DNA from: Terriglobus albidus
Lineage (GTDB): Bacteria; Acidobacteriota; Terriglobia; Terriglobales; Acidobacteriaceae
NCBI RefSeq assembly: GCF_008000815.1
Contig: NZ_CP042806.1
Coordinates: 6,138,001 to 6,202,000, forward strand
DNA length: 64,000 nt
Direction of reading: 5' to 3'
This document shows positions 35,979 to 60,155 of the stretch, piece by piece (within the stretch, counting starts at the first letter, position 1; each line of letters begins with the position of its first letter). A program made the position numbers and the translations under genes. A model generated the notes under the pieces. That model was not told where the DNA came from, searched no databases, and saw only the letters and a program-made list of their open reading frames with translations.

Positions 35979-37472
35979 GTGCGACTCCCCTTCCCAACCA
36001 AGGTTCCCCTGTGGGGCGCAATCCTATTTGCCATCGTGCTCTGCCTCTTCGAAGTACTTCAGGGCACATCGACCTTTTTCACGCTGGGCGTATTTGCCTA
36101 CATCATTGTCTCGGTCCTGGCCTTCAATGCAGCTGGCGGCCTGTCGACGCCGAGCGGCGGGTACATCTTCTTCCAGGTTGTCCTGACAGCGCTGTTTGGC
36201 TTTGTGATGAAGGCCGTCTTGTGGGAAGCAGCTGACAGCAGACTGCGCGTACCTGAAACCACCATCATGGCCAACCTCGGCTTCAGCCTTGTCATGCTGA
36301 TCGCCGTTTATGTGAAGCGGCCGTTGACCAAAAAACCTGCCATTCTCAGCGGCCTTCTTACACCCGCCAGCACACGGCAGGCGACCATCGGTTGTGTCAT
36401 CATCGCCATCGCCATTGATGCCTACTCAGCCATTGCGGGCCTGGGAGATGGCACTCTTGCCAGCGCACTGAATCGTGCGAATGTCTTTCTTCCTATCGCC
36501 ATCCTGATCGGTACGTTCGACACGGTCAGGCGGAGCGGAGGGCGCAAGAATGTGAGCTTAATTGCGGTCTTCGCTGGTGTTTACTCCTTTGTGATCGTCG
36601 GCCTCCTGAGGTACTCCAAGGAAGCAATGCTGGCGAGCCTTGTCGCCTGGCTGATCGCTGTGGCCGCCAGTGGCGGCAGGCTCTCTCTCCGGCAGATCGC
36701 CTTCATCCTCGTAGCAGGCGCGGGAATCGTGTACTTCCTGGTGCCCTATGCGCAGGGAGGCCGGGTTGACAGAGGTACTCCAGGCAATCAGCTCGACAAG
36801 GCAATGACTAACCTTTCCCGTATCGACGAGTTTCGTGCCCAAACGGCTTTAGACGCAGCGGACGCGGAGCGTCAGCCAAACGAACCGCTGTTTTATGACG
36901 AGAAGGTGGGATTTCTCGAGCGCTTCCAGATGATCAGTTGGGATGACGCTTTGATAGAAACGGCCGTTAACGGCAGCACACTCGGCTACACCCCGCTTCT
37001 GACATACATGTACAACATAGTGCCCCACTTCCTATGGCCCGATAAACCCGTGACAATTTGGGGGAACTTTTACGCCCATCGCATCGGAATGCTCGCCGAC
37101 GACGACATCTATACAGGCGTCTCGTTTTCGCCAGTAGCGGAGGTATTTCTGATGGACGGCTGGAACAGTCTCTTCTTCGTCTGTCCTTTCATTTACATCG
37201 TCGTCTTTGCAGTCATCGATTCGGTAGGGGGCGACGTTCGCTATAACCCCTGGGGCCTCTTTTTCACCATGATCTCAGCCCATAATGCCAATGAAGGCAT
37301 GCTTGCTGCCCCTTTCACGATGGCAACATTCCTGACGCCTCTGCTGATCGGGCTCGCCTATTTCACGGTATATGTACTTCCACTCATCGGCAGTCTGCTG
37401 CTGCCGCGCAGCCGCGCAGCGATCATGCAGGGCCGCACTCAGCCACGATTCATCCGTGAAACGCCAAGCTAG
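35979..37472 (+). CDS. Polytopic membrane protein, O-antigen polymerase-like
   Basis: This 497-residue protein has about 12 hydrophobic segments and a larger soluble loop around residues 265-345 (GRVDRGTPGNQLDKAMTNLSRIDEFRAQTAL onward) ending in YTPLLTYMYNIVPHFLWPDKP, a layout like Wzy/EpsG-type polysaccharide polymerases. No biochemical motif proves the role. The start is GTG 35979 with only a TAGACT box upstream. The stop TAG (37470-37472) is formed by the TA target and first G of a MITE copy, so the natural 3' end may have been changed. A glycosyltransferase gene lies 5 kb away, not in the same operon. Confidence 0.65.
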   Translation: MRLPFPTKVPLWGAILFAIVLCLFEVLQGTSTFFTLGVFAYIIVSVLAFNAAGGLSTPSGGYIFFQVVLTALFGFVMKAVLWEAADSRLRVPETTIMANLGFSLVMLIAVYVKRPLTKKPAILSGLLTPASTRQATIGCVIIAIAIDAYSAIAGLGDGTLASALNRANVFLPIAILIGTFDTVRRSGGRKNVSLIAVFAGVYSFVIVGLLRYSKEAMLASLVAWLIAVAASGGRLSLRQIAFILVAGAGIVYFLVPYAQGGRVDRGTPGNQLDKAMTNLSRIDEFRAQTALDAADAERQPNEPLFYDEKVGFLERFQMISWDDALIETAVNGSTLGYTPLLTYMYNIVPHFLWPDKPVTIWGNFYAHRIGMLADDDIYTGVSFSPVAEVFLMDGWNSLFFVCPFIYIVVFAVIDSVGGDVRYNPWGLFFTMISAHNANEGMLAAPFTMATFLTPLLIGLAYFTVYVLPLIGSLLLPRSRAAIMQGRTQPRFIRETPS

Positions 37473-37586
37473 AGCATTTTCCCTGCGGGTGTAGTGCAGG
37501 GCCTCCGCATCGATGGGCGTTTTCCGCAATGAAAACGCCCGCTGCACGCCTCTTCCGGAATCCCCGGTAACAGGGAAAATGCTCCA
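37470..37586. mobile_element. MITE-like element, copy 3, at the stop codon of the polymerase-like gene
   Basis: TAGAGCATTTTCCCTG...CAGGGAAAATGCTCCA, nearly perfect terminal repeats. The first three bases are the stop codon of the upstream gene, and the right end lies 21 bp before the next start codon. Confidence 0.85.
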
Positions 37587-37592
37587 AGGCGA

Positions 37593-37598
37593 TACACT
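37593..37598 (+). promoter_or_regulatory. -10 box of a probable leaderless promoter (permease gene)
   Basis: TACACT, nine nt before ATG 37608. The corresponding -35 position falls inside the right terminal repeat of the MITE. Confidence 0.45.
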
Positions 37599-37607
37599 GC
37601 AAAAAGC

Positions 37608-38711
37608 ATGAATAAGCTGGTTATTGGAAATCTCGTCCACAGACCGCTACGCTCGCTGATCAGCGTCTTCGCCGTGGCCATTGAAGTCATCATGATCTTG
37701 TCCATTGCGGCAATCATGTTCGGCATGCTGAACGGACAGAAGGTAAGGACCAGCGGCATCGGCGCTGACATGATCACGCACCCCGGCGCGGCATCGAATC
37801 TGATAGGCGTCAGCGGCGCCGCAGCTTCCATCAAAGTTGCAGATGTGCTGCGCCCCCTGCCTCATGTCACCGTGGTATCCCCCGTGAACATCAAGCTCTC
37901 TTCAGGCGCCACACTAGAGAACATCTACGGCATCGATTTCAAGAGCTTTCAGGATCTTCGCCCCTTCATATTTATCTCCGGTGGTCCCTTCCAGGCTCCT
38001 GACGATGCCATCATCGATGACTATGAAGCGGCTCGGGGGACCGGGAAAAAAGTAGGTGACCCCATTCAGATCCTCAACCATACCTTCCGCATCGCGGGTA
38101 TCGTTGAGCACGGGCGCGGAGGCCGCAAGTTCATCCCGATCGACACCATGGGGCAGCTGATTGGTACCGAGGGCAAGGCCAGCTACTTTTATCTCAAACT
38201 TGACGACATCAAGAACAGCGACGCCGTTCGCGCTGAAATTAAGGCCACTCCGGGCATGGAGCAGTATGACGTTCAGACCATGGAAGAACTGCTCTCCAGT
38301 CTGACGCCCGATAAGATGCCGGGGTTCAATGTAGGCCTCCGGACTGTCATCGGCATCGCCATCATCATTGGCTTCCTCGTAATCTTTCAATCCATGTACA
38401 CCGCGGTCATGGAACGCACCCGTGAGATCGGCATCCTGAAGTCACTGGGAGCCTCCAAAGCCGCCATCGTTGGCGCCGTCCTTCGTGAGAGCGGTTTGCT
38501 TGCCGTCTGCGGCATCGTTTTGGGGATCGCTGCGACATTCGGCATTCGCGCCGGCCTGCATGCAAAGTTCCCTACGATGGATTTCGAGCTGACAGGAAAT
38601 TGGATCGCCATTGCAACCCTTCTGGCTCTTGCCGGAGCTCTCTTCGGTGCTCTCTATCCAGCGCTGAAAGCTGCAGCAAAAGATCCTATCGAAGCACTCG
38701 CATACGAATAG
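37608..38711 (+). CDS. FtsX/MacB-type ABC transporter permease without adjacent ATPase
   Basis: This 367-residue protein has the single-repeat MacB layout: a first transmembrane helix (residues 15-40), a large periplasmic core (about 45-240) and three C-terminal helices. The FtsX signature is MERTREIGILKSLGASKAAIVGAVL. It would pair with an MJ0796/LolD-type ATPase to drive mechanotransmission or lipoprotein or peptide export. No ATPase gene is next to it, because MITE copies flank it on both sides. The stop TAG is again supplied by a MITE end. Confidence 0.88.
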   Translation: MNKLVIGNLVHRPLRSLISVFAVAIEVIMILSIAAIMFGMLNGQKVRTSGIGADMITHPGAASNLIGVSGAAASIKVADVLRPLPHVTVVSPVNIKLSSGATLENIYGIDFKSFQDLRPFIFISGGPFQAPDDAIIDDYEAARGTGKKVGDPIQILNHTFRIAGIVEHGRGGRKFIPIDTMGQLIGTEGKASYFYLKLDDIKNSDAVRAEIKATPGMEQYDVQTMEELLSSLTPDKMPGFNVGLRTVIGIAIIIGFLVIFQSMYTAVMERTREIGILKSLGASKAAIVGAVLRESGLLAVCGIVLGIAATFGIRAGLHAKFPTMDFELTGNWIAIATLLALAGALFGALYPALKAAAKDPIEALAYE

Positions 38712-38825
38712 AGCATTTTTCCTGTAGGTCTAGTGTCGGGGCTTCCGCATCCATGGGCGTTTTCCGCAAATGAAAACGCCGCTGTACGCACCTTCTGGGA
38801 TACCCAGCGACAGGGAAAATGACCT
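38709..38825. mobile_element. MITE-like element, copy 4, at the stop codon of the permease gene
   Basis: TAGAGCATTTTTCCTGT...ACAGGGAAAATGACCTC; the left TAG is the permease stop codon. The right end is mutated. Confidence 0.82.
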
Positions 38826-38859
38826 CCTCCTGCGTTATTCCCATGCAACGAATAACCCA

Positions 38860-39012
38860 TGTCGGAGTCCCGTGGGGACGTGGGCGATTCGAGCGGAGCT
38901 CGAACCGCCCTTTTGTCATTTCGTAGCGACCGGGGTCCCCAGCCAGCTTGCTGGTTGAGGTGGATCGACCAACGGGAGCGCAGATTTCTCCGCTATCGCT
39001 ACGAAATGACAA
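38860..39012. repeat. Mosaic palindromic repeats between permease and DUF1501 genes
   Basis: Contains CCGTGGGGACGTGGGCGATTCGAG..., a GGGGTCCCCAGCCAGCTTGCTGGTTGAGG hairpin (38932-38963) and two arms of the GTCATTTCGTAGCGA/TACGAAATGACAAGC unit. No gene is visible here. Confidence 0.6.
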
Positions 39013-39033
39013 GCAAAATATGCTCAGGCGTTC

Positions 39034-40365
39034 TTATCCCAGAAAACCTAACGTACTCTTCGAGAAGTTACTCAGCTCCGGAAACACATTGCTGAGATCC
39101 TTGCTCTGCACCCCCAGCCACTGCGCCAGCGTGGCGGCATATTGCGAGCCGGAGGTTGTCGGGATCCAGAGTCCATTCGTCGCAAAGTCGTCATCACCGC
39201 CGATAACAAGGCTGGGGAAGGTGCCATACATATCACCACCCTTGACTGCACCACCGACGATGAGGTGATGATTGCCCCAGGCATGATCGGTTCCACCCCC
39301 GCTGTTTACCAGGTGCGAGCGTGCGAAGTCGGTCATAGTGAAGAGCGTCACCTGATCGAACATGTTGATCTCCTGCATGGCAGCCGCAAAGGCGCCGACT
39401 GCACCATCAAGATCTGCAAGATTCGATTCCTGTTGCGGGAGCTGCAGCGTATGCGTGTCATAGCCTGACACGCTGGAGAGGAAGATCTGCCGATTGACAT
39501 CGAAGCGTGAACGGCCATTGATCATCTGCGCGATGACCTGCAACTGCTGGCCAATATATGTGTTGGGAAACTTGGTCTGAATGCTGGAGCCCGTGGAAGC
39601 GGCATCCACAAGTAGCTTCGTTGTGGACAGGTGACCGCTCTGCATCTCAGAGATCGTATTCGACAACGCGTTCGAGCCCGGTGTCGAGTCCATCTGATTC
39701 AGGGAAGGTGTCAGAGACTGCAATGCATTCAGAACAGACAGAGCGTTGTTACCGGCGCCGATGGCGGCGAGCTCGGTTGTTGTGCCGCTGCCGAGCAACT
39801 GCCATCCGCTGGTCGAGATCACGACGGGCGAGCTCGAAAGATTCTGCTTCGCGAGAAGATCGGCAAGACGTCCGGCCCATCCATTGGTGCTGTCAGCCTG
39901 TGTAAGCGCGGACTGCCATTCGGCGGCCTGCCCGGTGTGGGAGAACAGGTTGAGCGGCACCTTGCCCGTGGTCTGTCCCTTCTTGTAAGGCATGGTCAAT
40001 GGACCCGCATTGCATAGCCATGTAGCGTGACCCTGGTTGTAGAGTGAGGCTACATTCTTCAGGCTGGGATGCAGACCGAAGAGACGTCCACCACTGGTAG
40101 CCCGCAGGCTGGCAAGGCTGGTTCGATCGAGAGCCAGTGCACCTCTACCGTTAGCGTACTGCGAGTAGTACGAGTCGACAGGAATGACAGTGTTATTTCC
40201 ATCATTGCCACCGTCGAGATATATACAGACGATCGCTCGGTAGCCGCTATTGCTGCCGGCAGCCTGTGCCAGAAGAGGTGCTGAGATCAGCCGCGGAATG
40301 AGCGGTGCTGCACTCGCCCCTAGTGCAAATTTTGAAGTGTGTTTAAGAAATTCACGCCGATTCAT
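39034..40365 (-). CDS. DUF1501 protein, Tat-exported
   Basis: This 443-residue protein starts MNRREFLKHTSKFALGASAAPLIPRL, a Tat signal. The sulfatase-fold-like DUF1501 core shows AIVCIYLDGGNDGNNTVIP, a TMTDFARSHLVNSGGGTDHAWGNHHLIVGG stretch and a conserved C-terminal domain. The gene lies 32 bp after a DUF1800 gene. This pair recurs in many Bacteria, but the activity is unproven; a periplasmic hydrolase or phosphoesterase-like fold is inferred. SD GAGGG precedes the start. Confidence 0.9.
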   Translation of the reverse strand: MNRREFLKHTSKFALGASAAPLIPRLISAPLLAQAAGSNSGYRAIVCIYLDGGNDGNNTVIPVDSYYSQYANGRGALALDRTSLASLRATSGGRLFGLHPSLKNVASLYNQGHATWLCNAGPLTMPYKKGQTTGKVPLNLFSHTGQAAEWQSALTQADSTNGWAGRLADLLAKQNLSSSPVVISTSGWQLLGSGTTTELAAIGAGNNALSVLNALQSLTPSLNQMDSTPGSNALSNTISEMQSGHLSTTKLLVDAASTGSSIQTKFPNTYIGQQLQVIAQMINGRSRFDVNRQIFLSSVSGYDTHTLQLPQQESNLADLDGAVGAFAAAMQEINMFDQVTLFTMTDFARSHLVNSGGGTDHAWGNHHLIVGGAVKGGDMYGTFPSLVIGGDDDFATNGLWIPTTSGSQYAATLAQWLGVQSKDLSNVFPELSNFSKSTLGFLG

Positions 40366-40397
40366 CGTTGCCCTCTAACTTATGTTGTGTGCTTTAC

Positions 40398-42821
40398 CTA
40401 TTGAATGGTCTGGTATGCCGCGCTTGAAACTGCCATAAACATCAGGTCCGGGAGCATGGAATTAATCGATGATCCGGTGTTAGCGGCAATGTAATTGGTC
40501 AGTGTCGTGCGAACGCTATCGGGCATCTGGCCGTGATACAGCAGGTGATTGACGCGCGCCAGAAAGTCATCCGTGGAGGTGGCGTTCGAGAACGGAGATG
40601 TCTTCCAATTGACCTGGAAGCCTGGTTGCTTGTTAGTGAAGATACTGTAGATCAGGCCAAGCTTGGTGACACCGTTCGCATTCGTTAGCAGTTGCGCCTC
40701 AGGAGCGTAGGTCCCATTAGGAAGCATGTGATCGGGGCTGTAATAGCTGAAGACCGAGGACGGACTGTAGAGGGCCTGTCCCATGGCGGCGTCGACGTTG
40801 CGCACCTGGTCGTCCGTGTAGACACCCTGCACTGCGTTCATAACATTCGCCAGGTAGAGAGCGGGCTCCATGTAGTGTCCACTTGCGGAATCGACCTGTG
40901 CGGCGTCATCGCCTTTGCGGGCTTCTTTATCGAGCAGGATTGCCTTAACCACCGCACCGAGATTGCCACGGACGCCGTTGCCATCATCCGCGAAGACCGC
41001 AGCGATGCGAGCGATGTATGCGGGTGAGGGATTGCTGGTTACCAGATGCTGAATCAAACGGCGCGAGAGAAATGGCCCATAGTTCGGATGATTGAAGAGT
41101 GTTTCGACGACCGCATCGAGATCGACCTCTCCTCTTTGCCCCGCCGGCAGTGTGATACCGGGCAAAATATTCTTGGCGCCCTGGTTGTGCCATCCTTCCG
41201 CCATGACCATAGGAACCTGTATCTGAGGGAGAAGTTCTCCCGCGCGGGCGTATTTCCATCCACTCAGTGCGTTTGCCATCTCCGCGATGTTCGACTGCGT
41301 GTAGGTCGGTACCGGCTGTCCATTCGCATCTAGAACGGCTGTTCCATCCTGGTTGAGCTGCACGGTTCCAATCGTCATCAGCTGCATGAACTCGCGAGCG
41401 AAGTTCTGGTTGGGCACTATGCCGTTGTAAGCGGCGTTATTGGCGTTGTCGAGATACGAGCCCATCAGGGGGTTAACCGCAACATCTTTCAGAAGCGTGC
41501 GCGCATTGCCAAAGGCATCGTTCTCCAGCACTGCTTCCCAGTAAGGTCCGCAATCCGTGGAGACACAGGCGCTGCTGCCGCTAGCGACATAGACATGTGA
41601 GAGTGCGGACGAGACACGCTGACGCAGTGAGTACTGTAGCGACTGGGTATTGCGATAGTACTGTCCGTACGAAAGCCCGGCGGTACTGGTGTAGTCATAA
41701 GCCGGATTCTTCAGTTGCTGATCGATCCAGCTACTCATACCCATCTGCTGTACCTGTTGCACGGCGGCCGGCGTTGCGCCGTAGGCGGCTTGCTGCAGGA
41801 AACGCACGGCAGCATCGTAGGAGACCGGTAATGCTTTGACTGAGAGCTGCAATGTGCCGGTGCTTCCACCATCGGAGCCGCTCATGCTTCCCTTGATGGC
41901 TATCGATCCGGAGTCCCACGACTGCATCGCGGCCTGCACGGAGATCTGTGTATCGCTGACCTTAGTAAAGCTCTGCGACTGACCGTTGATCATCAACTGC
42001 GAAAGATTCGAGAGGTGAGTTCCTGTAATCGTGAGTGTGGTCGTGGCCCCGGCATCGATCTGCGTGGGCGTGCTGCTGGTTAGTGTCGGCAGCGCGCGGC
42101 CAATGGGGAGGGCCAGTGTCGCAGTGACAGATGGAGTTGCTGTCAGAGATGCGGTGATGTGCGCGGTGGTGCTTGCGGTAACGTTACTGCTGGCAGTGTA
42201 GGTGCCGTCCGTTGTTACCGAGCCTGAATCAGTGCGCCACGTGATGGATTGTGTTGTTGAGGCTCCGTTGAGCAGTGCCGTAAACTGCGTGCTCTCTCCT
42301 TCGCGAAGAGAGGCTGCAGCGGTGCTGACGGTCAGTGTCTGCGAGATGCCCTTACCGGAAGCGGTAACAGTCAGCGAGCCGGTGCTCGTGGCAAATGTAA
42401 TACCTCCGGTCAAGGTACCGGACTGATCCGGTGTAAACAGTACAGCCATGGTGCACTTCGCGTTGGCACCAAGTGTGCCAAGACAGAGAGAAGTATCCGA
42501 GTGGAAGCTGCCGGTAACGTTGATGCTCTGCACCGTTGCTGCGGCGGTGCCGGTGTTGCTGAGAGTAATGTTCTGTGCAGCGCTGGCGGCGCCTACCGAG
42601 GTGTCAGGGAAGGCGAGTTGTGTCCCGCTCAATGTCAATAGCGGCGCACCGGAGGAGGTGCTGCCTGACGATCCGGCGCCGGAAGTAGAGTTGGAGACTG
42701 CGGATGTGCCAGACTGGCCTGTACCGCATCCATACAGAACGATCGACGCTCCAAGTGCAAGGTGGAGAACCACATCTCCCATGTGCTTTCTGAAAATGCG
42801 AATCCGCTGCCGCTCAGCCAT
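40398..42821 (-). CDS. DUF1800 protein with N-terminal Ig-like domains, probable lipoprotein
   Basis: This 807-residue protein has an N-terminal hydrophobic stretch ending LYGCGTG (a lipobox-like Cys), a Ser/Gly/Thr-rich linker, an ASH/choice-of-anchor-type domain (LSGTQLAFPDTSVGAASAAQNI, about 65-160), a second Ig-like domain (160-245), an IPT/TIG-type domain (ITGTHLSNLSQLMINGQ, about 250-320), then DUF1800 (about 335-800) with AVRFLQQAAYGATP and NFAREFMQLMTIGTVQLNQDG. It is transcribed ahead of the DUF1501 gene and the two probably act together at the cell surface. SD GGAG precedes ATG 42821. Function unknown. Confidence 0.88.
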   Translation of the reverse strand: MAERQRIRIFRKHMGDVVLHLALGASIVLYGCGTGQSGTSAVSNSTSGAGSSGSTSSGAPLLTLSGTQLAFPDTSVGAASAAQNITLSNTGTAAATVQSINVTGSFHSDTSLCLGTLGANAKCTMAVLFTPDQSGTLTGGITFATSTGSLTVTASGKGISQTLTVSTAAASLREGESTQFTALLNGASTTQSITWRTDSGSVTTDGTYTASSNVTASTTAHITASLTATPSVTATLALPIGRALPTLTSSTPTQIDAGATTTLTITGTHLSNLSQLMINGQSQSFTKVSDTQISVQAAMQSWDSGSIAIKGSMSGSDGGSTGTLQLSVKALPVSYDAAVRFLQQAAYGATPAAVQQVQQMGMSSWIDQQLKNPAYDYTSTAGLSYGQYYRNTQSLQYSLRQRVSSALSHVYVASGSSACVSTDCGPYWEAVLENDAFGNARTLLKDVAVNPLMGSYLDNANNAAYNGIVPNQNFAREFMQLMTIGTVQLNQDGTAVLDANGQPVPTYTQSNIAEMANALSGWKYARAGELLPQIQVPMVMAEGWHNQGAKNILPGITLPAGQRGEVDLDAVVETLFNHPNYGPFLSRRLIQHLVTSNPSPAYIARIAAVFADDGNGVRGNLGAVVKAILLDKEARKGDDAAQVDSASGHYMEPALYLANVMNAVQGVYTDDQVRNVDAAMGQALYSPSSVFSYYSPDHMLPNGTYAPEAQLLTNANGVTKLGLIYSIFTNKQPGFQVNWKTSPFSNATSTDDFLARVNHLLYHGQMPDSVRTTLTNYIAANTGSSINSMLPDLMFMAVSSAAYQTIQ

Positions 42822-42979
42822 TGCTCTGCTCCCTGCACAGGCTTATCGGCGACGGATAGGAATATCGCTGCGCTGTTGCAAGATCGGACAGTGCACTGGT
42901 TGCAGCACACATAACGCCAAAAGCTGCCGTCTGGACCGCACTTCTGGAGACCGCTGTGTGGACTGCGAGGATGATCCGT

Positions 42980-42985
42980 TAAAAT
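42980..42985 (+). promoter_or_regulatory. -10 box of a probable leaderless promoter (glycosyltransferase gene)
   Basis: TAAAAT, seven nt before GTG 42993, without a Shine-Dalgarno. Confidence 0.5.
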
Positions 42986-42992
42986 CACATAC

Positions 42993-44567: not shown

Positions 44568-44579
44568 TTCAAGCCGTGC

Positions 44580-44936: not shown

Positions 44937-44984
44937 GCGGGAAGAGTGCTCCCGCCGCACCGCCGCGAGCAAGTTAATTCTCGA

Positions 44985-45401: not shown

Positions 45402-45420
45402 CGGCCAACATTTTAGCCGC

Positions 45421-47090: not shown

Positions 47091-47205
47091 TAGAGCATTT
47101 TCCCTGTTGCTGGGTACCCCGAAAGGGCGTGCAGCGGCGTTTTCATTGCGGAAAACGCCCATGGATGCAGAAGCTCTACATTACACCTGCAGGGAAAATG
47201 CTTCA
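47091..47205. mobile_element. MITE-like element, copy 5 (inverted), at the stop codon of the GH39 gene
   Basis: TAGAGCATTTTCCCTGT at the left and AGGGAAAATGCTTCA at the right; the last three bases (complement TGA) are the stop codon of the GH39 gene on the minus strand. Confidence 0.8.
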
Positions 47206-48690
47206 TTTCTCGACCGTCACCAGAAGCAGAGCATTTGGCGCGAGTTGCAGACGAAGGGCGCCGTTTGCCAACCGCATATGCTCGGGCTCTTCCAGAGCCG
47301 TCTTGCTGTTAAGCTCTGTAGCCTGGGCGGCTGTAGGGCTGACGGGACTTCCCATCGCCTTGTAGAAGGGAGCAACGTTGCTATGCGTCTCATCGACACG
47401 CTGGATACTGACATCGGCATTCGCGCTAACGCCTTGAAGCTGCAGCGTAACGGTACTTGTTTGCGGTTGCGCCTCAGGATCGACCAGATTCCATAACGCG
47501 ATAGCCAATCGCCCATCCGCGAGGCGAGTGACGATAGCGTTCTTCGACGGATTGGCGATGCGCTGCTCACCGAGCTTATGCAGCAGAGCAAAGTCATAGA
47601 AGGCGGGTTTGTTAATCCCGCCCATCGCGCGGATCCCGAACTGTGTAAAGGGAGCGCGCGCCGGGCCTCCCTCCTCAAAGACCTCAGAGAAGGTCCAGAA
47701 AGAGAGATAGTCGACATTGCCATCACTCTCGCGGATGGTGTTCGCAAGCGCCGGGCCGACGTACGGCGTCTCGCGAGCGTCGTGGACGGGATAGACGTTC
47801 CATTCGGTCCAGAGCAAAGGAAGGTGCGGCGTCGGTGAAGAGTCGATCTGGCGGCGCACCTTTGCGACAACGGCAGCAACGCGGTCTTCCGGCGCAATCA
47901 CCTCGTCGGTGCCGAGCAGGCGCTTCACGGGCTCGTCGGCGTAGCCGTGGGTCGAGACGAAATCCACCGGAACGTGGTCGCGGGCGCAGAAGGCAAGGAA
48001 CCCCGGAATCCAGGCAGCGGCGGCGGTCGCTGGACCGCCGACACGAAGGCGCGAATTGACGGCTTTCAGAGACCGGGCGGTGTTGGCGTAGAGAGCGAAG
48101 TAGGTCTCGCCCCGGGGAACGCCACCCCAGAAGTCGATGTTCGGCTCGTTCCACACCTCGAAGTACCACTGCGCCACTTCGTCGATACCGTAACGCTCCA
48201 CCAGATGGCGGGCGAGTGCCGTCATCAGGTCGTTCCAGCGCTTGATGTCCTTAGGTGGAGAGACGTTCTGCTTGTACCAGAAGGGATGCAGTGCGTCGGG
48301 GTTGAATGCCAGCTTCTTCGGCATGAAGCTGAGCTCCACCACTGGACGGACACCTGCGGCGCGCAGGCCATCGTAGACCTGGTCAATGTAGTTGAAGTTG
48401 TAGACCGGATTACCATGTTCGTCCTCGTTGTAGACGCCCAGCTCGTCATGCAGGATGGCATGGAAGCGGATGTACTTAACCCCGGTAACGGCGTGTACGG
48501 CGGCGAGGTCGTCGCGGTAGCTCTGACGAAGGGAAAGAATCGCGCGGCCTGAGCCGAACATCTCTTCCCAGAAGTGGGGAAAGGGTTTGGCCTCGGCATG
48601 GGCATCGACACGCACCGTCTCTTCCCGTTGCGCCACAACGGGAAGTACGGCACACCACAACAGCACGGAAAGGACGGCTCGGCGGCGCAT
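47203..48690 (-). CDS. Secreted GH39-type beta-xylosidase-like glycoside hydrolase
   Basis: This 495-residue protein has the signal peptide MRRRAVLSVLLWCAVLPVVAQ. The clan GH-A barrel has the acid/base Glu in WYFEVWNEPNIDFW (about 178) and the nucleophile Glu in PLLWTEWNVYPV (about 296), with YIRFHAILHDELGVY as the GH39 substrate-binding stretch. A C-terminal beta-sandwich follows. It probably releases xylose or a related sugar from plant or algal glycans. The stop codon lies in the terminal repeat of a MITE (TGAAGCATTTTC), so the last codons adjoin inserted DNA. Confidence 0.88.
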   Translation of the reverse strand: MRRRAVLSVLLWCAVLPVVAQREETVRVDAHAEAKPFPHFWEEMFGSGRAILSLRQSYRDDLAAVHAVTGVKYIRFHAILHDELGVYNEDEHGNPVYNFNYIDQVYDGLRAAGVRPVVELSFMPKKLAFNPDALHPFWYKQNVSPPKDIKRWNDLMTALARHLVERYGIDEVAQWYFEVWNEPNIDFWGGVPRGETYFALYANTARSLKAVNSRLRVGGPATAAAAWIPGFLAFCARDHVPVDFVSTHGYADEPVKRLLGTDEVIAPEDRVAAVVAKVRRQIDSSPTPHLPLLWTEWNVYPVHDARETPYVGPALANTIRESDGNVDYLSFWTFSEVFEEGGPARAPFTQFGIRAMGGINKPAFYDFALLHKLGEQRIANPSKNAIVTRLADGRLAIALWNLVDPEAQPQTSTVTLQLQGVSANADVSIQRVDETHSNVAPFYKAMGSPVSPTAAQATELNSKTALEEPEHMRLANGALRLQLAPNALLLVTVEK

Positions 48691-50051: not shown

Positions 50052-50088
50052 ACATTGAAGCCCGCACAGCATGGGGCGCCCATACACC

Positions 50089-50273
50089 GGGTGCCCCACA
50101 TACGCGAAGCTTATGTGGGAAGATCGAGCGCAGCTCGATCCGCTTTTTGTTTGTCGTTCCTCAGAGATCTGTTTTATTGCCTATCCGAGACAAAAAGACG
50201 GTTCGATCTGCGCTCGAATACCCATGTCCAGAATCGGGACACCACCCCAGCAAACTTGTCTGCTGGGGACCCC
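50089..50273. repeat. Mosaic palindromic repeats between ada and nitrilase genes
   Basis: Units are GGGTGCCCCACATACGCGAAGC with a TATGTGGG arm (50089-50119), GATCGAGCGCAGCTCGATC, and the CACCCCAGCAAACTTGTCTGCTGGGG hairpin (50243-50273). The order matches the cluster at 6660-6760 but is inverted or rearranged. No gene is visible in 50052-50298. Confidence 0.65.
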
Positions 50274-50298
50274 GGACATAGGGCATCCGGTGCATAGG

Positions 50299-52074: not shown

Positions 52075-52102
52075 GGGCTGTTTCCCTCGTGGGGGCCTGT
52101 GA

Positions 52103-52108
52103 TACGTT
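52103..52108 (+). promoter_or_regulatory. -10 box of a probable leaderless promoter (small Cys-rich protein)
   Basis: TACGTT, eight nt before ATG 52117, with only a C-rich stretch between. Confidence 0.35.
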
Positions 52109-52116
52109 GCCCCCAT

Positions 52117-52380
52117 ATGTCCTATACCGAAAGCTACGAGTGTGATGTTTGCGGCAATAAGAAGGGAGAGCGCGACCTGTGGTGGCTCTCATTCAGTGAC
52201 TGTATCCCTGGCTCCTCACCCGACGACACCATCCCGGTCATCAAGTTCTCTCGCTTCGATGTCAGCCACTCCCATGACAAGACCGTAAAGCATATCTGCG
52301 GCGCCCAGTGCGCGGCGACGCTGATGAACCGCTGGATGAGCGACCAGCACGACGACCCCGATCAGCATTGCGCCCGGTAG
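52117..52380 (+). CDS. Small Cys-rich, zinc-ribbon-like protein
   Basis: This 87-residue protein has a CxxC at residues 9-12 (YECDVCGNKKGERDLWW), further Cys in a HICGAQC motif near the C-terminus, and the helix AATLMNRWM. Four Cys/His positions could bind zinc. I recall similar unnamed acidobacterial proteins but no function. Start 52117 is the Met before SYTESYECDVC. The last codons and stop lie inside the first unit of a tandem repeat, so the C-terminus (DQHCAR) may be repeat-derived. Confidence 0.7.
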   Translation: MSYTESYECDVCGNKKGERDLWWLSFSDCIPGSSPDDTIPVIKFSRFDVSHSHDKTVKHICGAQCAATLMNRWMSDQHDDPDQHCAR

Positions 52381-52471
52381 CACACCAGCACTTGTGCACA
52401 GGAAAGTGGGCGTTGCGCCCGGTAAGGAACAGAGCACCTGTGCACCGTAACATCGGGCATTGCGCGCGGTA
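52365..52471 (+). repeat. Tandem repeat of about 46 bp, 2.3 copies
   Basis: GCATTGCGCCCGGTA (52365), GCGTTGCGCCCGGTA (52410) and GCATTGCGCGCGGTA (52457) recur with periods 45 and 47; the middles share AGCAC(T/C)TGTGCAC. The first unit includes the stop codon of the upstream gene and the last abuts a MITE. Confidence 0.75.
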
Positions 52472-52584
52472 GAGTATTTCTCCCGTAGGTGGAGTGCAGG
52501 GCTTGTGCATCTATGGGCGTTTTCCGCAATGAAAACGCCGCTGCACACTCTCACGGGATACCCAGCAACAGGAGAAAGGCTCTA
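52470..52584. mobile_element. MITE-like element, copy 6
   Basis: TA-bounded 115 bp; arms GAGTATTTCTCCCGT and ACAGGAGAAAGGCTC. Both arms carry TTTCTCC where other copies have TTTTCCC, a matched change. Confidence 0.82.
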
Positions 52585-52726
52585 ATCTATAAGGGCGCTT
52601 GAATGCGTGGTTTTTACCGCTCGCTGCACGGATTCCCCGTTCCCGCAGGTTGCACGAAAGGTAGTGCAATCCGGGTGCTATTCTGGGGCGGGAAATTTTC
52701 TATCCCAATCTTTTTAAGAGGTATCT

Positions 52727-54157: not shown

Positions 54158-54159
54158 GT

Positions 54160-54195
54160 TGGTTGAATGGTTCAATAGTTGAATCGTTGAATGGT
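54160..54195. repeat. Iterated GTTGAATGGTTCAATAG tract
   Basis: Four iterations of a GTTGAAT(C/G)GT-like unit directly after the ahcY stop, the inverse of the tract at 11790-11821. Confidence 0.6.
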
Positions 54196-54229
54196 GAAAA
54201 AGCCCCTTGTACATCGAGGGGCTTTTTCT
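54196..54229 (+). terminator. Rho-independent terminator of ahcY
   Basis: AAAAAGCCCCT-loop-AGGGGCTTTTT, an 11-bp perfect hairpin ending in a T run. Confidence 0.9.
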
Positions 54230-54286
54230 ATTGGGATAGTGGGATTGTTCTCTGTTTAGAAACCGGACACTGTCCGACCCCATATA

Positions 54287-54621
54287 GGTACCTCAGCGGC
54301 TGAAGCCGCGTACACCTCAGCACGGGTGCGGCATGGCTGAAGCCATGCCCTTAAGCAAAACAAAAGCTCATCTCTCGTTCGCGCAACGCGCGAATGCCTT
54401 GCTTAAGGGGACGGCTTCACAGGCTGCGGAAAAACTCGATTTTCGAGAAGCGCAAAAAAAACGATCGCGTCAGAATGACCTATAAGCGATCCCGGGACAT
54501 TGGGTGATGATTTTCTATCCCCAAATTTGACCCGATTATCCCCTCATATAGAGTTTTTCCGCAGCCTGTTCAGCCGTCCCGCAGTCAGAGTAAGGTAGAG
54601 CGGCTTCAGCCGCTGAGGTAC
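54287..54621. repeat. 335-bp element with three nested inverted repeats
   Basis: Outer arms GGTACCTCAGCGGCTGAAGC (54287 on) and the complement at 54600-54621; a short pair CCCTTAAGCAA/TTGCTTAAGGG (about 54347 and 54398); and 30-bp inner arms (54408-54437 and 54551-54580, 2 mismatches) beginning GGGACGGCT and ending GGAAAAACTC. No reading frame of note. It is probably nested insertions of small palindromic elements; the 54230-54715 gap holds no gene. Confidence 0.75.
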
Positions 54622-54648
54622 ATGGGCCGATACCAATCAAGCGCCCTG

Positions 54649-54688
54649 CAAACCCACATCTCGGCTTCGCCGAGATATGGGGCACCCG
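54649..54688. repeat. GCAAACCCACATCTCGGC hairpin repeat
   Basis: CATCTCGGCTTCGCCGAGATATGGGGCACCC; the same unit with changed loops lies at 57221-57260 and 62622-62661. Confidence 0.75.
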
Positions 54689-54715
54689 CCTGTGGGAGCA
54701 CCCGTCTGTGGTGAG

Positions 54716-55039
54716 TTAGCGGACGCGGGCGTTGTGCTTGTCGCGATAGATGCGGCGGGATTCCGCGTTCTGCTGTTTGTTGATCAGATGGCGATCCGCG
54801 GCGGTGAGGTGGCCGTTGTCCTGGGCACGCATGGCGCGTTCTTCATGATTGATGGCCGCCTCCTGGTGTTCCAGGTGCGAGGTCTCACGCGGTGTGAGTT
54901 GGCCGGAGCGGACACCCTGGGCGATGCGGTCCTGCTGGTTGATCTTGCGGTCACGAATCTCCTGCGAGCTTTGTGCAAGAACGAGGGTAGGAGCAACGGC
55001 GATCAGCGTGGTGAGAGCGAGGGAAGCGAACTTCTTCAT
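54716..55039 (-). CDS. Small exported protein, Gln/Arg-rich, unknown function
   Basis: This 107-residue protein has a signal peptide (MKKFASLALTTLIAVAPTLVLAQ) and a mature helical region with repeated charged motifs: IRDRKINQQDRIAQGVRSGQLTPRETSHLEHQEAAINHEERAMRAQDNGHLT. The pattern of a GxLTxxE turn between helices resembles an EF-hand-free, periplasmic helical-repeat family found widely in Gram-negative bacteria and never assigned a role, as far as I know. It is transcribed alone. Confidence 0.75.
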   Translation of the reverse strand: MKKFASLALTTLIAVAPTLVLAQSSQEIRDRKINQQDRIAQGVRSGQLTPRETSHLEHQEAAINHEERAMRAQDNGHLTAADRHLINKQQNAESRRIYRDKHNARVR

Positions 55040-55163
55040 GACGGGGGATCTCCTTCAACTGCCGTGGCAGAGATAATGCGCCTGCCTACGAAGAGAGCAG
55101 ACACAGGGAGATACACCATGTTGCGAAGTTTATTTTTCGCGCTGCAGCGCGACATCCGGTGCT

Positions 55164-55910
55164 TTACTGGGTCGCGGTCGCCGAGTCGTAGTCGTTGGCC
55201 ACAATCACGTTCAGCGCGGGAGTGGTTACGAGCTGGCGATCGAGAATCACGATGGTGCGCGCGGAACCCTGCGGATAAGCTGTCGCTGCTCCTGTGTAAA
55301 GCGTCGTGGTCGTTGTGGTGAGCGCCGTTCCGTTGCTGACGATGTAAAGCGTATAGGTACCGACCGGGATGTTCAGATAGCCGGTGTTGGTGTTGAAGCT
55401 GATGTCGCTCTGCAACGACGAGACAGCAGTGACAGCCGTTCCTGACGGAACCATGTAGATATCGATATTGCCGACCGCAGTGGACTGGTCGAGGAAGCGG
55501 ATGGCGATCTGACCCGAAGGAGCGGGCTGCGACTGGTCAGTGAGCACCGTTGCACTCAGGTTGGCGGCGACGTTGCCGACCAGGACGGTGTATTGCTTGC
55601 TGTTGGCCAGGGTCGCGCGGGCGGTGGCCAAAGCCTGCTTGGTACCGGCGGTGTCTGCAGTAATAACGTAGGTGGCCGGGGTGGCCGGGATGTACGACGT
55701 AATGGTGCCGAAGCCGACGTTGTAGGCGACGGCGGTGCCGCCCATGTACATGTCCAGACCGCCGGCATCGATGGAGGCATCAATGAAACGGACCTGCGAG
55801 GTGCTGGTGCTGCCGGTGACACCCTGGCAACCACCAAAACCAAGCGTCGCGGCGGCCAGAGCGGTCGCAGCGGCGACTCGCTTAAAGAACTGTGCAACGT
55901 CTGCTTTCAT
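55164..55910 (-). CDS. DUF4397-domain lipoprotein
   Basis: This 248-residue protein has a lipoprotein signal ending LGFGGC (Cys28). Two successive DUF4397 beta-sandwich units are visible: VRFIDASIDAGGLDMYMGGTAV and, about 110 residues later, IRFLDQSTAVGNIDIYMVPSG. Each is followed by a YTLYIV/YVITAD strand. Such proteins are surface-anchored and of unknown function. It is divergent from the LssY_C gene. Confidence 0.88.
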   Translation of the reverse strand: MKADVAQFFKRVAAATALAAATLGFGGCQGVTGSTSTSQVRFIDASIDAGGLDMYMGGTAVAYNVGFGTITSYIPATPATYVITADTAGTKQALATARATLANSKQYTVLVGNVAANLSATVLTDQSQPAPSGQIAIRFLDQSTAVGNIDIYMVPSGTAVTAVSSLQSDISFNTNTGYLNIPVGTYTLYIVSNGTALTTTTTTLYTGAATAYPQGSARTIVILDRQLVTTPALNVIVANDYDSATATQ

Positions 55911-56007
55911 TGGCCTGTCTAAGTCGTGTGGACTACTTGCAACAGAGTACCTGATTCCGGGTTATCAACCTAGGGCGAAAGTCGTTACCCCCTGGAACGA
56001 AAGTCGT

Positions 56008-57165
56008 ATGGTGAAGCTTCCCGTATATCTGGCATGGCCACTTGTTCTCTCCACCGCCGTCCTGGCGCAACAACAGGAGGCGCCGCAGCAACGCGTCACT
56101 GCGATTCCCAGCATGCGTGCCAAGCAGGGGACGCAGCCCCTTCCACAACGCAAATCTTCCTATAGCTTTACGCTCGCGAACACTACCTGGCTGGATACCG
56201 GCGTGACCGTAGCTGCAGGCGAACGCCTGAAACTGAGCGCAAAGGGGAGCTTCCAGCTCGCGGACGGGCGCAAGTCGGGTCCCGCGGGCGTCGACCGCGG
56301 ATGGCGCGACCTGCTGGCGAGCTTTCCCATGAACGCCGCACCCGTGGGTTCCCTGATCGGACGTGTGAGCGATGCGGGCGCCTCTATTCCCTTTCCCATC
56401 GGCGAAGATGACACGGTCACCGCGCCCACTACCGGACATCTTTACCTTGGAGTTAACCTTCCTGACAGCATCACGGCCACGGGCAGTTTTACCGTCAAGT
56501 TGGAGTTCCCCAAGCCTGAGGCAGTCGCACCGAAGGCCCTGGCAGCGACGCCGATGCAGGACCTCACCTCGATGATCTCTCCGGATACCTTCGCCGAGGT
56601 GCCGCGCCGCGTAAGCGACCAGCAAGGCAATGTAGGCGACATGGTGAACTTCGCTCTGGTCGGTACACGTGGACAGGTAGAGCAGGCATTCAAGGCAGCC
56701 GGGTGGGTACAAGTCGATCAATCCGTCGATGCGGCCATCGTGCACGGCATCATGTCCACGTTGTCCCATGAGGCCTACCTGCAGATGCCAATGAGCACGC
56801 TGTATCTCTTCGACCGGCCACAAGATCTTTCGTATGCCCGAGCGGAGGCGATCAGCGTCGTTGCCGTACGGCACCACCTGCGTGTATGGAACAGCGGAAA
56901 GACGATCAACGACGTGCCGTTATGGGTAGGATCGGCAACACACGACAACGGCTTTGAGAAAGACCAGCGCAATGGCCAGGTGACCCACCATATCGATCCT
57001 GATATCGACATCGAGCGAAAGTTCATCCTCGACAGTTTCGATGCCGCCGGTGTGTTTTCTTCTGCGGCCTATGTGTTGCCGGATGATCCGTTTTCGAGTG
57101 GAAAGACGGCGACGGGAGGAGAGTTTCACTCCGATGGGCGGATTCTGGTGATGATGCTGAAGTAG
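56008..57165 (+). CDS. Secreted protein with PA-IL-like and LssY C-terminal domains
   Basis: This 385-residue protein has the signal peptide MVKLPVYLAWPLVLSTAVLAQ. Residues about 55-165 resemble a LecA/PA-IL-like jelly roll (TTWLDTGVTVAAGERLKLSAKGSFQL, then GHLYLGVNLPDSI). Residues about 200-370 match the LssY C-terminal domain (FALVGTRGQVEQAFKAAGWVQVD to LDSFDAAGVFSSAAYVLPDDP). LssY_C proteins are exported and linked to lipid or envelope functions in other bacteria. Start 56008 excludes a long upstream extension running through the divergent gene. Confidence 0.82.
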   Translation: MVKLPVYLAWPLVLSTAVLAQQQEAPQQRVTAIPSMRAKQGTQPLPQRKSSYSFTLANTTWLDTGVTVAAGERLKLSAKGSFQLADGRKSGPAGVDRGWRDLLASFPMNAAPVGSLIGRVSDAGASIPFPIGEDDTVTAPTTGHLYLGVNLPDSITATGSFTVKLEFPKPEAVAPKALAATPMQDLTSMISPDTFAEVPRRVSDQQGNVGDMVNFALVGTRGQVEQAFKAAGWVQVDQSVDAAIVHGIMSTLSHEAYLQMPMSTLYLFDRPQDLSYARAEAISVVAVRHHLRVWNSGKTINDVPLWVGSATHDNGFEKDQRNGQVTHHIDPDIDIERKFILDSFDAAGVFSSAAYVLPDDPFSSGKTATGGEFHSDGRILVMMLK

Positions 57166-57220
57166 GGAGAAGTCAAAGTTGAAGACCTACGGTATGGGCT
57201 CAACCCAGATCGTGGGTGCT

Positions 57221-57260
57221 GCAAACCCACATCTCGGCGTAGCCGAGATATGGGGCACCC
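57221..57260. repeat. GCAAACCCACATCTCGGC hairpin repeat
   Basis: CATCTCGGCGTAGCCGAGATATGGGGCACCC, same family as 54649-54688 with a changed loop. Confidence 0.75.
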
Positions 57261-57331
57261 AGTTGTTCTGGGATAAGCAGATGACGCCGATGCAAGCATC
57301 AATAACTAGGAACCAGCAACTAGCAACTGTT

Positions 57332-59971
57332 TTAGCTGACCTTCATCACCACCGACGTCATGTCGTCATGCTGCGGAGCGCCGTTGACGAACTCATCGGC
57401 GCGGCGATAGAGAGCGCGTAGCAGGCCTTCGGCCGTAAGTGCTCCGCGGGCGCGTTCCTGTTGGGCGGCGGTGATCATGCGGCACTCGCCCCACTCTTCG
57501 TCGTCGCCGTCCATAGCTTCGGAGATGCCGTCGGTGAAGAGCACCAGGATGTCGCCGGGCTCTAGAGTAATGTCGCGCTGCTCGTAGGCTGCGTCTTCAG
57601 TAATACCAACGACCATACCAGTGACTTCGAGCGCGATCACCTGATCGCCGCGCAGGATCACTGGTGGATTATGCCCACCGTTGGCATAGCAGAGGCGGCG
57701 GCTTGCGGGATCGTATTCGGCGTAGAAGAAGGTGGCGTAGCGGTTGGCGTGGCTGCCGTCGTAGACAAGCTTGTTGACGTGACCCATCAGCTCGCCGAGA
57801 TCGGAAGAGCCGACCAGCGTAAGGCCGCGCAGGCTGGCGCGGAGACTCGCCATCAGCAAGGCCGCGGAGATGCCTTTGCCGGAGACGTCTCCGATGGCCA
57901 GGCCGAGCAGACGCGGCTGCGGTGAGCCATCGTCGCTCTCGCGCTTCACCTCCATCACGTCGTAGTAGTCGCCGCCGATCTCCTGCGCCGGGCGACAGTA
58001 GCCGGCAACATCGACGCCATCGAACTTCGGATAGGTCTGCGGGAAGAGACGTTCCTGCACCTCGCGTGCGATCTCGATGTCGCGGGTGACACGCTCGCGC
58101 TGCGCAGCTTCGTGGGCAAGAGACTGGAGCAACTCTGCATTCTCAAGCGCGAGGCCGGTCTGCGAGGCGACGCTCTCAAGCAGACGGCGATCCATGCGGG
58201 AGTAGGGCTCTTCGCTGCGTTTCGGGCCGAGCGCCATGACGCCGATCAAGCGTCCACGGCCTGGCAGCGGAACCAGAAGCTCAGTCTGGAACTCGCTGAG
58301 TGCGGCACGCTCTGTGTCGCTGGCCTCGAGCAGCCAGTGGGAGCTGTCGTCAATGCGCATCGCCGCGGGCCGCTTCTCACGGGAGAGTGTGTTGACGGTC
58401 GCCGAATGCGCCGGCAACAGAACAGGCGAGGTCAAGTCGACTCCGGTGGCCGTCTGCAGGCGGAAGACATCGCCGCTGCCGCGCAGGAAGACAGCCATCC
58501 GTTCGATGTGCAGCGTGTCGCTGATGCGCTGGGTAATGGTGCTGAGCAGAGGACCGGTCTCGGTGAAGTTATGCGCCTGCTCTGACAGCTCGCTCAGCAC
58601 CTGTTCGGTGGAATACGCTTCGCGAAAGAAACGGCGGTCGATCTCCTGCTGCAGCCGTCCGGAGAGGACCATGCGGAAGCCGAAGAAGAGGAGGAGCAGA
58701 GCGAAGATGAGGATAACGTCGACCGGTCTGCGATGAGATTCCGGATCGGCGAAGAAGATCGTAAGCCGCCACGAGAAGAGAACGCCGAGCAGAGCCCGAA
58801 TACCGAAGAGGGTGTAGCGCGCGAAGGCGTACCTGGTGCCCTGGCGGACGATCAGGCGAATATCCATGGCGCGCTGTACGACCAGAGCGTAAGCGAGCGA
58901 GAGCGGGAAGATCGCCAGCACCAGGACGATGCCAAAGCTGAGCCACTGCGGGAAGGTCTCGCTCACGTCTTCGCCGGTAACAAGCGTGTAGATCACCATG
59001 GCGCCAAAGGGAGTAAGCCCGATCAACGATCCCCAGAAGAGCAGGCGCAGACGGCGGCCGGAGTCGGCGCCGACCTTTTCGGCGAAGATCTTGTGGCTGA
59101 AAAGAACGAAAAAGTAAGCGACGCAGAGGATGCTGAGAAAGCTCTCGATGCGGTCAGTCGGCAGAAACCACGGGCTCATGGTGCGATCGAGCGACAGGTT
59201 CCAGAGACGCGCATAGCTGTGAAACAGGTTGAAGGGCAACAGGGCGAGCAGAGAGATGCTCAGCAGCCACTTGATCCACGGAGCGCGGCGATCAAAGCCG
59301 GCACGCTCTGGAAAGAGAACACCAAACCACATCAGGCAGATGGGCATGGCCATCTGTGCGGTCTCATTCCAGAAGGGGGAAAACCAGATCGTCCAGTCCC
59401 CTTGCGGGTTAGCCGGTGAGAGCAGCGCCTCAAAGTAAGGCAGGATGCCGAGGACCAGCCACGCGCTGAGGTCATGCGGTTTGGCGAGCACGACCCACAG
59501 ACCCACCAGGAGAAAGGCCAGGGGAAGGATGACAAGCAGCAGCAGCGGACCGATCCATCCTGCGGGCCTGCCTCCGCCACGGCGGCGCTGCGGCGTAATG
59601 AGCTGCCAGCTTACCGTCTGCTGTTTGCCGTCGGGGTGCCGCACCTCCACCTTGATGGTGTCGCCGAGATGCGCATGGGCGAACTCCCGCAGCAGAACGG
59701 CCTCACCGGTCAATTCATGACCGTTGACCGCGAGCACACGGTCACCGACCTGCAGACCCGCATGACGAAGAAAGGGACTCATCCCCTCGATCACCCCGTT
59801 GTTGAGGCCGAAAGGAGCTCGAATGCCGCGCTCAGCGCTGAAGATACCCCGCACCACGCGATACGCAGTATTTCCCCACTGCCCCAGGGCCATGGCGGCG
59901 ATGAGCAGGAGCAGCAGATACTGCACGACGGCGGAGCGGTGCCTGGGCCGTGATGGGGAAAATGTATGCAT
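57332..59971 (-). CDS. Membrane PDZ-GAF-PP2C (SpoIIE/RsbU-type) serine phosphatase
   Basis: This 879-residue protein has four parts: an N-terminal transmembrane helix, a PDZ-like module (LRHAGLQVGDRVLAVNGHELTGEAV, about 70-115), about eight transmembrane helices (135-440), and a cytoplasmic GAF (about 490-630) plus SpoIIE/PP2C domain (about 660-875). The phosphatase domain keeps the metal Asp motifs AIGDVSGKGISAALLM and VLFTDGISEAMDG. Such proteins dephosphorylate anti-anti-sigma or partner-switch proteins after a signal. No RsbW/RsbV-type partner is nearby. The PDZ placed before the membrane domain suggests periplasmic sensing. Confidence 0.9.
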   Translation of the reverse strand: MHTFSPSRPRHRSAVVQYLLLLLIAAMALGQWGNTAYRVVRGIFSAERGIRAPFGLNNGVIEGMSPFLRHAGLQVGDRVLAVNGHELTGEAVLLREFAHAHLGDTIKVEVRHPDGKQQTVSWQLITPQRRRGGGRPAGWIGPLLLLVILPLAFLLVGLWVVLAKPHDLSAWLVLGILPYFEALLSPANPQGDWTIWFSPFWNETAQMAMPICLMWFGVLFPERAGFDRRAPWIKWLLSISLLALLPFNLFHSYARLWNLSLDRTMSPWFLPTDRIESFLSILCVAYFFVLFSHKIFAEKVGADSGRRLRLLFWGSLIGLTPFGAMVIYTLVTGEDVSETFPQWLSFGIVLVLAIFPLSLAYALVVQRAMDIRLIVRQGTRYAFARYTLFGIRALLGVLFSWRLTIFFADPESHRRPVDVILIFALLLLFFGFRMVLSGRLQQEIDRRFFREAYSTEQVLSELSEQAHNFTETGPLLSTITQRISDTLHIERMAVFLRGSGDVFRLQTATGVDLTSPVLLPAHSATVNTLSREKRPAAMRIDDSSHWLLEASDTERAALSEFQTELLVPLPGRGRLIGVMALGPKRSEEPYSRMDRRLLESVASQTGLALENAELLQSLAHEAAQRERVTRDIEIAREVQERLFPQTYPKFDGVDVAGYCRPAQEIGGDYYDVMEVKRESDDGSPQPRLLGLAIGDVSGKGISAALLMASLRASLRGLTLVGSSDLGELMGHVNKLVYDGSHANRYATFFYAEYDPASRRLCYANGGHNPPVILRGDQVIALEVTGMVVGITEDAAYEQRDITLEPGDILVLFTDGISEAMDGDDEEWGECRMITAAQQERARGALTAEGLLRALYRRADEFVNGAPQHDDMTSVVMKVS

Positions 59972-60039
59972 CCGTGTCGGTGCTCATCCTAGCATCGGAG
60001 ACGAACGAGCAGACCGAATGGTTTACGGGTGGCGGTTGC

Positions 60040-60155
60040 TAGAGCATTTCTCCTGTAGGTGTAGTGGAGGGCTTATGCATCTATGGGCGTTTTCCGCAAT
60101 GAAAACGCCGCTGCACGCTGCTCCCGGGATACCCAGCAACAGAAGAAATGCTCTA
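60040..60155. mobile_element. MITE-like element, copy 7, at the stop codon of the HhH gene
   Basis: TA-bounded; arms GAGCATTTCTCCTGT and ACAGAAGAAATGCTC. The last three bases (complement TAG) are the stop codon of the minus-strand HhH protein. Confidence 0.85.

Follow-up and report, generated by a model that had tools for sequence, protein, structure and literature searches.

Copies of a short MITE family in a Terriglobus (Acidobacteriota) genome coincide with the stop codons of genes; in the parts of two genomes that were surveyed, this happens more often than expected, and most of the empty sites read in relatives have a native stop at the same codon. The family very probably represents a non-autonomous, TA-targeting MITE that is mobilised in trans, enters TAA and TAG stop codons and rebuilds TAG; the excess beyond the target motif would come from biased insertion at gene ends or from selective retention of copies there. 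According to this mechanism, the MITE would insert at a TA within an asymmetric target close to CGMTAR, and TA would then stand on both sides of an element whose first inner base is G. Upon entry into TAA or TAG, TA and G would combine into an in-frame TAG. Because the first inner base of the element is G, the stop would be regenerated, and the upstream protein would keep its full length and be unharmed. Mobility would be supplied in trans by a putative TA-specific transposase.

Structure, spread and window copies of the MITE family

The window is a 64-kb stretch of a single-contig genome (labelled G000; G008, G012, G015 and G017 are relatives) and contains seven copies of a 116-bp near-palindromic MITE (Table 1). 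The MITE carries ∼16-bp terminal inverted repeats, TAGAGCATTTTYCCTG, at both ends, and its end type is TAGAGCATTTT. In 2.064 Mb of G000, 106 near-full copies were found with a modal length of 116 bp. A pattern search allowing up to three mismatches yields 253 core matches in the whole of G000, and an initial DNA search gave 329 candidates, of which 40 were scored; ∼250-330 copies are estimated on the 6.4-Mb chromosome. The median identity to the consensus is 0.90, and randomly drawn pairs (n = 200) are 77% identical on average and 95% at most. When up to two mismatches are allowed, four of 19 genomes from the genus contain the core (G000, 232 matches; G008, 307; G012, 218; G015, 210), and none of the 22 genomes sampled outside the genus does. 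Within the genomes sampled, the family was found only in one genus.

The family has several features of a bacterial MITE. It is short (below ∼400 bp), non-coding and multi-copy, it has terminal inverted repeats, and its filled and empty sites display a target duplication, a picture that a TA carried by the element would also give. The empty sites contain a single TA, and TA flanks the inserted element on each side. No MITE copy of the window is matched by Rfam at the gathering threshold.

Table 1. Positions of the MITE copies and of the genes that they terminate, numbered from the first base of the window
Feature	Coordinates	Strand	Remarks
Window	bases 6138001-6202000 of G000		single contig of 6,405,582 bp
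MITE copy	11487..11600	+	off stop codon
MITE copy	29049..29164	+	3' end ∼20 bp downstream of - gene 30268-29183; not exactly at its stop
MITE copy	37470..37586	+	5' end = stop TAG (37470-37472) of gene 35979-37472
MITE copy	38709..38826	+	5' end = stop TAG (38709-38711) of gene 37608-38711; 3' end mutated
MITE copy	47091..47205	-	mutated 5' end (TGAAGC) = stop TGA (47203-47205) of GH39 gene
MITE copy	52470..52584	+	off stop codon; 92 bp downstream of a weakly called ORF, upstream of AdoHcyase gene
MITE copy	60040..60155	+	3' end = stop TAG (60155-60153) of - strand HHH-motif gene
Membrane-protein-like gene	35979..37472	+	no Pfam match; ended by element-supplied TAG
MacB_PCD/FtsX permease gene	37608..38711	+	ended by element-supplied TAG
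GH39 gene	47203..48690	-	ended by TGA in mutated end of element
HHH_3 (ComEA-like) gene	60153..60473	-	ended by element-supplied TAG; Pfam score 26.4, slightly below the cut-off of 27

The sequence-only reading had assigned the stop TAG of three genes, at 37470-37472, 38709-38711 and 60153-60155, to the TA target plus the first G of the element, and a fourth stop, the TGA of the GH39 gene, to a mutated element end. All four coincidences are confirmed, and the TGA corresponds to the element's first codon in mutated form. The further claim that four of seven copies at stops lie above chance is borne out (P 0.003-0.005 when stops are taken as 10-12% of the permissible TA sites); with the mutated end omitted, three of seven gives P = 0.04.

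Relatives provide a history for the window copies. The 37470 copy is also present in G015 and has become a tandem dimer in G008, and the 38709 copy is present in G015 and is a decayed remnant in G008. These two insertions are, as read from the relatives, older and common to them. The 37470 element is followed by A, which makes TAA the probable native stop. The MacB-like permease ended by the 38709 copy is 92% identical to that of Terriglobus albidus DSM 26559 and 98% identical to that of an Acidobacteriaceae MAG. For the GH39 gene, the empty site reads AAA TAG in G015 and G008, and the filled site of G000 reads AAA TGA; in G017, which is more distant and lacks the element, the gene runs on for another seven codons. 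By this comparison, a TAG was entered by the element, whose end later mutated to another stop codon. The element-supplied TAG at 47203-47205 is now TGA and is still a stop, which would fit selection that preserves the stop and lets the remainder of the end decay.

The HHH-motif gene carries the same 60040 copy in G000 and G015. In the element-free G017, it ends two codons later with CAA TAA; in G008, it has a longer tail and a MITE copy at its stop in the opposite orientation. No exact empty site was seen among G008, G015 and G017. This arrangement suggests that the stop of one gene has been used repeatedly, with inversion in place as the alternative. In G008 (L232, C19), a repetitive tail with QEHHSS-like repeats precedes the element-supplied stop. 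In G008, the site of the 52470 copy, which lies off a stop codon, is empty and contains a single TA.

Some MITE copies are arranged as head-to-tail dimers that share one TA, as at locus L111 (upstream of position 3001). Further dimers are located at 301895-302126 and 325486-325715 of the joined G008 C28 stretch; the halves of these two are 92-94% identical to each other, and the G008 dimer at the 37470 locus displays the same private variants in both halves. Because the dimer halves are more alike than an average pair, tandem duplication of copies in place is probable, and the family would thus probably also multiply by this route.

The window harbours other repeats and a candidate RNA. Two more short palindromic repeat families, apparently unrelated to the MITE, have cores like CCCACATCTCGGC..GAGATATGGGGCACCC and CACCCCAGC..GCTGGGGACCCCGG. 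Palindromic repeats are found at 54643-54699, 57216-57272 and 62617-62673 and also at 6682-6722, 38927-38963, 50234-50274 and 62507-62543. A 300-nt direct repeat with 97% identity occupies 5167-5466 and 61119-61418, 56 kb apart. At 15249-15293 (+), Rfam matches Acido-Lenti-1 RNA with a score of 37.1 (gathering score 37).

Coincidence with native stop codons

The survey covered 2.0 Mb of chromosome plus the window (2.064 Mb), about one third of G000, with genes called by a home-made hexamer-based script and not taken from curated annotation. In total, 1703 genes were called, with 614 TAG, 578 TAA and 511 TGA stops. From 236 profile matches, 26 that lacked more than 15 nt at an end or lay near a stretch edge were dropped, and the remaining 210, which included both strands of the palindrome, were merged into the 106 copies. 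The count that the sequence-only reading had proposed, made here over the 2.064 Mb, reveals 36 of these copies with the stop codon of a called gene exactly at an element end (5' end, 25; 3' end, 11; 35 TAG and 1 TGA). If non-coding TA sites and TAA/TAG stops are equal targets, 10.5 stop copies are expected (P 1.6e-11); when sites are weighted by the flanking bases that non-stop copies prefer, the expectation is 12.6 (P 2.4e-9). Five gene-calling thresholds place 34-36 of the 106 copies at stops, with P from 3e-10 to 7e-15. A second genome gives the same excess: in 0.8 Mb of G008, 19 of 63 copies are at stops compared with 7.2 expected (P = 4.7e-5). A BLAST search with flanks identified zero orthologue pairs between the surveyed parts of G000 and G008. 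The two parts share almost nothing orthologous, and thus the G008 result concerns different loci.

Stop copies are also found in operon-like spacers, as had been supposed, and are mildly over-represented there: the next gene on the same strand begins within 60 bp for 12 of the 36 stop copies versus 255 of 1192 TAA/TAG stops overall.

The coincidence could arise as an artefact if random insertions truncated genes and the gene caller ended each ORF at the in-frame TAG of the element. Any ORF that enters a copy in frame 0 does end at the element TAG. Reading frames and flanking bases nevertheless make this explanation highly improbable. Among genes that read into an element, the stop is at offset 0 in 36 (25 + 11), at offset 16 in two and deeper in three; random intragenic insertion would spread over the three frames, and the dominance of offset 0 with other frames nearly absent therefore indicates frame specificity. 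Moreover, the base after the far-end TA is A or G in all 20 of the 5'-stop copies whose far end is intact (20 of 25 in total), as expected if the insertion split a TAA or TAG. A or G follows the far end in 45 of 57 non-stop copies, and the corresponding flank base fits in 9 of 11 3'-stop copies.

Orthologues free of the element, the other comparison proposed from the sequence, address truncation directly. With the four stop copies of the window omitted, the best-scoring 20 of the other 32 stop copies were taken (J0-J19), their joined flanks were queried in G008, G012, G015 and G017, and selected sites were read. A relative without the copy was readable for 19 of the 20, and J15 gave no empty site. 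In 16 of these 19 (J0-J8, J10, J12, J13, J14, J16, J17 and J19), the codon concerned is a native TAA or TAG in at least one relative. J13 has TGA at the codon in G017, TAG in G012 and TAA in G008; for J14 and J16, the evidence comes from G017 alone, at ∼80% identity over the gene end. A profile search for element remnants in these sites was positive only for J11 in G008 and J19 in G012, two stretches that had not been counted as empty.

Three sites depart from this pattern. At J9, one of the two 3'-stop copies with an ill-fitting flank base, G015 and G008 read GAC TAC TGA; the last Tyr codon was struck and one residue was lost. J18 contradicts the pattern: in G008, the codon is TGG and the orthologue continues beyond it. 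J11 is ambiguous, with CAG in G015 and an element remnant in G008. J9 and possibly J18 are cases of the truncation artefact. At the level of sequence, it is settled that most stop copies examined sit at native stops and are not truncations. The proposal that insertion at the TA of TAA or TAG rebuilds TAG and spares the protein is supported by these empty sites, and in most cases examined the upstream protein reads as spared.

Target preference and the gene-end hot zone

The flanks of non-stop copies with intact ends define a target, modelled over the three bases before TA and the two after it and seen in both genomes. Position -3 is C in 34 of 66 copies (∼31% at background non-coding TA), position -2 is G in 39 of 66 (∼27% in the background) and T in only 3, and position -1 is A or C in 46 of 66 (∼51% in the background). 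The A or G that follows TA in 45 of 57 copies compares with ∼47% in the background. The element thus has an intrinsic asymmetric target of approximately CGMTAR in a fixed element orientation, and this target is part of the stop bias. IS630/Tc1-mariner and other TA- or CTAG-targeting insertion sequences use TA targets with a preferred near-symmetric context; the Terriglobus MITE differs in the asymmetry of its target and the fixed orientation of the element. Stops are favoured because TAA and TAG match the TAR part of the target, but the motif raises the expectation merely from 10.5 to 12.6.

Copies are concentrated at gene ends. Unweighted rates per 1000 TA sites were obtained from 169 copies of G000 and G008, with 16 copies that were more than 40% covered by genes set aside. 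The rate at stops is 43 in tandem and 21 in convergent settings. It is 28 and 16, respectively, at 1-20 nt downstream of the stop and 8 and 4 at 21-60 nt. Divergent spacers have a rate of 5, and all settings beyond the stop and the 1-20 nt zone range from 0 to 8. In convergent spacers, the rate is 3-4 at 21-150 nt, and the 547 sites located farther away than 150 nt carry no copy. Stops exceed the 1-20 nt zone with a raw P of 0.008 and a target-weighted P of 0.07. Given this modest step, the stop codon represents the peak of a gene-end zone and not a unique address. The possibility that the copies at 1-20 nt are decayed stop copies was rejected, as their 15 distances are split evenly (5:5:5) among the three frames.

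These rates bear on a passive origin of the pattern, in which TA sites would be struck at random, intragenic copies would be lost and the stop would be the last TA of a gene where insertion is tolerated. Copies within genes are few (6 of 106 copies in G000 are more than 40% covered by a called gene; 16 of 169 in both genomes), which indicates that purifying selection acts, and stops are tolerated because TAG is rebuilt. The passive account is nonetheless improbable. Stops are struck ∼3 times their share of non-coding plus stop TA sites, and the target motif closes little of this gap. Furthermore, distant convergent TA sites are almost empty compared with convergent stops, although tolerance should be highest there and no promoter should be harmed; tolerance alone is therefore insufficient for the peak.

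Selective retention, the second alternative of the sequence-only reading, offers another explanation, in which a long hairpin placed after the stop would be kept as a 3'-UTR element for mRNA 3'-end protection, processing or attenuation. Consistent with this idea, strong folds are predicted for two copies, with z = -6.3 for the 37470 copy folded as DNA and z = -6.5 for the 60040 copy folded as RNA, the stop codon of the latter being within the basal stem. The 0-20 nt hot zone is also stronger in tandem than in convergent settings. Retention is rather unlikely, however, because stop copies show no clear sign of greater age or better preservation than the others (median identity to the consensus 0.897 vs 0.888, P 0.09), and the 38709 copy has decayed in G008.

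Insertion bias toward gene 3' ends, caused by composition, supercoiling or termination and acting on top of CGMTAR, is the strongest of these candidates and is plausible, although confidence in it stops short of even. The tandem gradient of 43, 28 and 8 per 1000 TA sites away from the stop is in line with such a bias, convergent pairs follow the same direction, and the asymmetric motif is seen at non-stop copies too. Insertion bias is tentatively preferred over retention of a 3'-UTR hairpin as the cause of the gene-end concentration.

Element orientation, as a possible mark of a strand-specific mechanism, was recorded in the 1.864-Mb stretch 4538001-6402000 of G000, which holds the window, with 44 copies on the + strand and 50 on the - strand. 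The two halves of this stretch differ (Fisher P 0.01), with 21 of 58 copies on the + strand in the first half and 23 of 36 in the other, a shift that runs in the direction of the gene strand.

Mobilisation, known systems and biological meaning

PF13358 (IS630) has two matches in G000, two in G008, one in G015 and none in G012, and none of the IS630 copies behind these matches has ends matching the MITE. Of the two traits of a RUP-like, IS630-derived MITE, the TA target is present, and ends common with a host IS630 were not seen at the copies identified by PF13358. The two IS630 copies of G000 (L101 and L102) are 99.9% identical over 1165 bp and evidently recent, with ends unlike those of the MITE. 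Pairs of element-like ends in the 2.064 Mb are 66-2612 bp apart; six spans inspected by eye, with the pairs of 2462 and 2612 bp excluded, contain no transposase-like ORF, and a second search for inverted-repeat pairs in 2.864 Mb gave three weak candidates. The asymmetry of the target led to consideration of a Y1/REP-type (RAYT) origin. This origin was rejected: the seven Y1_Tnp matches of G000 were each viewed with ∼1.5 kb on either side, and one locus has a MITE copy, on one side only and ∼630 bp from the match. An autonomous partner with matching ends was thus not found among the IS630 and Y1 families in the parts of the genomes searched.

TA-ended MITEs are well known, as excerpts of two papers attest (PMC2229807, PMC3049150). 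According to these excerpts, RUP is 107 bp long, has terminal inverted repeats and TA in its target, occurs in 108-110 copies, is over-represented between convergent genes and is thought to be moved by IS630-Spn1 (PMC2229807, PMC3049150). The Terriglobus MITE resembles RUP in length (116 vs 107 bp), terminal inverted repeats and TA target. It differs in that RUP has a plausible IS630 partner, whereas none with matching ends was found here, and in that RUP is enriched in convergent spacers, which are poor in the Terriglobus MITE away from stops. Coincidence with stop codons, present in the Terriglobus MITE, is not seen for RUP in the excerpts of PMC2229807 and PMC3049150. ERIC, Correia/NEMIS and other bacterial MITEs are described in part of PMC2229807 as shorter than 200 bp and stem-forming, with terminal inverted repeats and mostly TA ends; exact stop-codon enrichment is not seen for them in that part. 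In Coxiella, QMITE2 in enhC is a MITE at a gene 3' end that affects the stop codon (PMC5896051). As far as the excerpt of that paper describes it, it is a single case in which the protein is extended, in contrast to the systematic regeneration of TAG by the Terriglobus MITE. No report of a MITE enriched at stop codons was found among titles and abstract openings of mostly open-access literature. What is known, then, is the TA-ended MITE; what is new is a MITE family with an unusually strong bias to stop codons and gene ends.

TA-targeting elements are common, and any with G or A as the first inner base would rebuild a stop in TAA or TAG. The Terriglobus MITE uses this safe niche ∼3 times its share, with support from empty sites at the sequence level. 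It provides a natural system for asking whether transposons reach safe sites by targeting or by selection and for examining what a long hairpin that begins at the stop codon does to termination, to the stability of the mRNA and to translation of the gene that follows. A more tentative reading, conceivable but doubtful at present, is an evolved gene-end strategy, in which the machinery of a 'stop-codon homing' MITE would prefer gene 3' ends plus TAR and the G would rebuild TAG. If true, such a MITE would be able to spread through transcribed, operon-like DNA while costing the upstream protein almost nothing.
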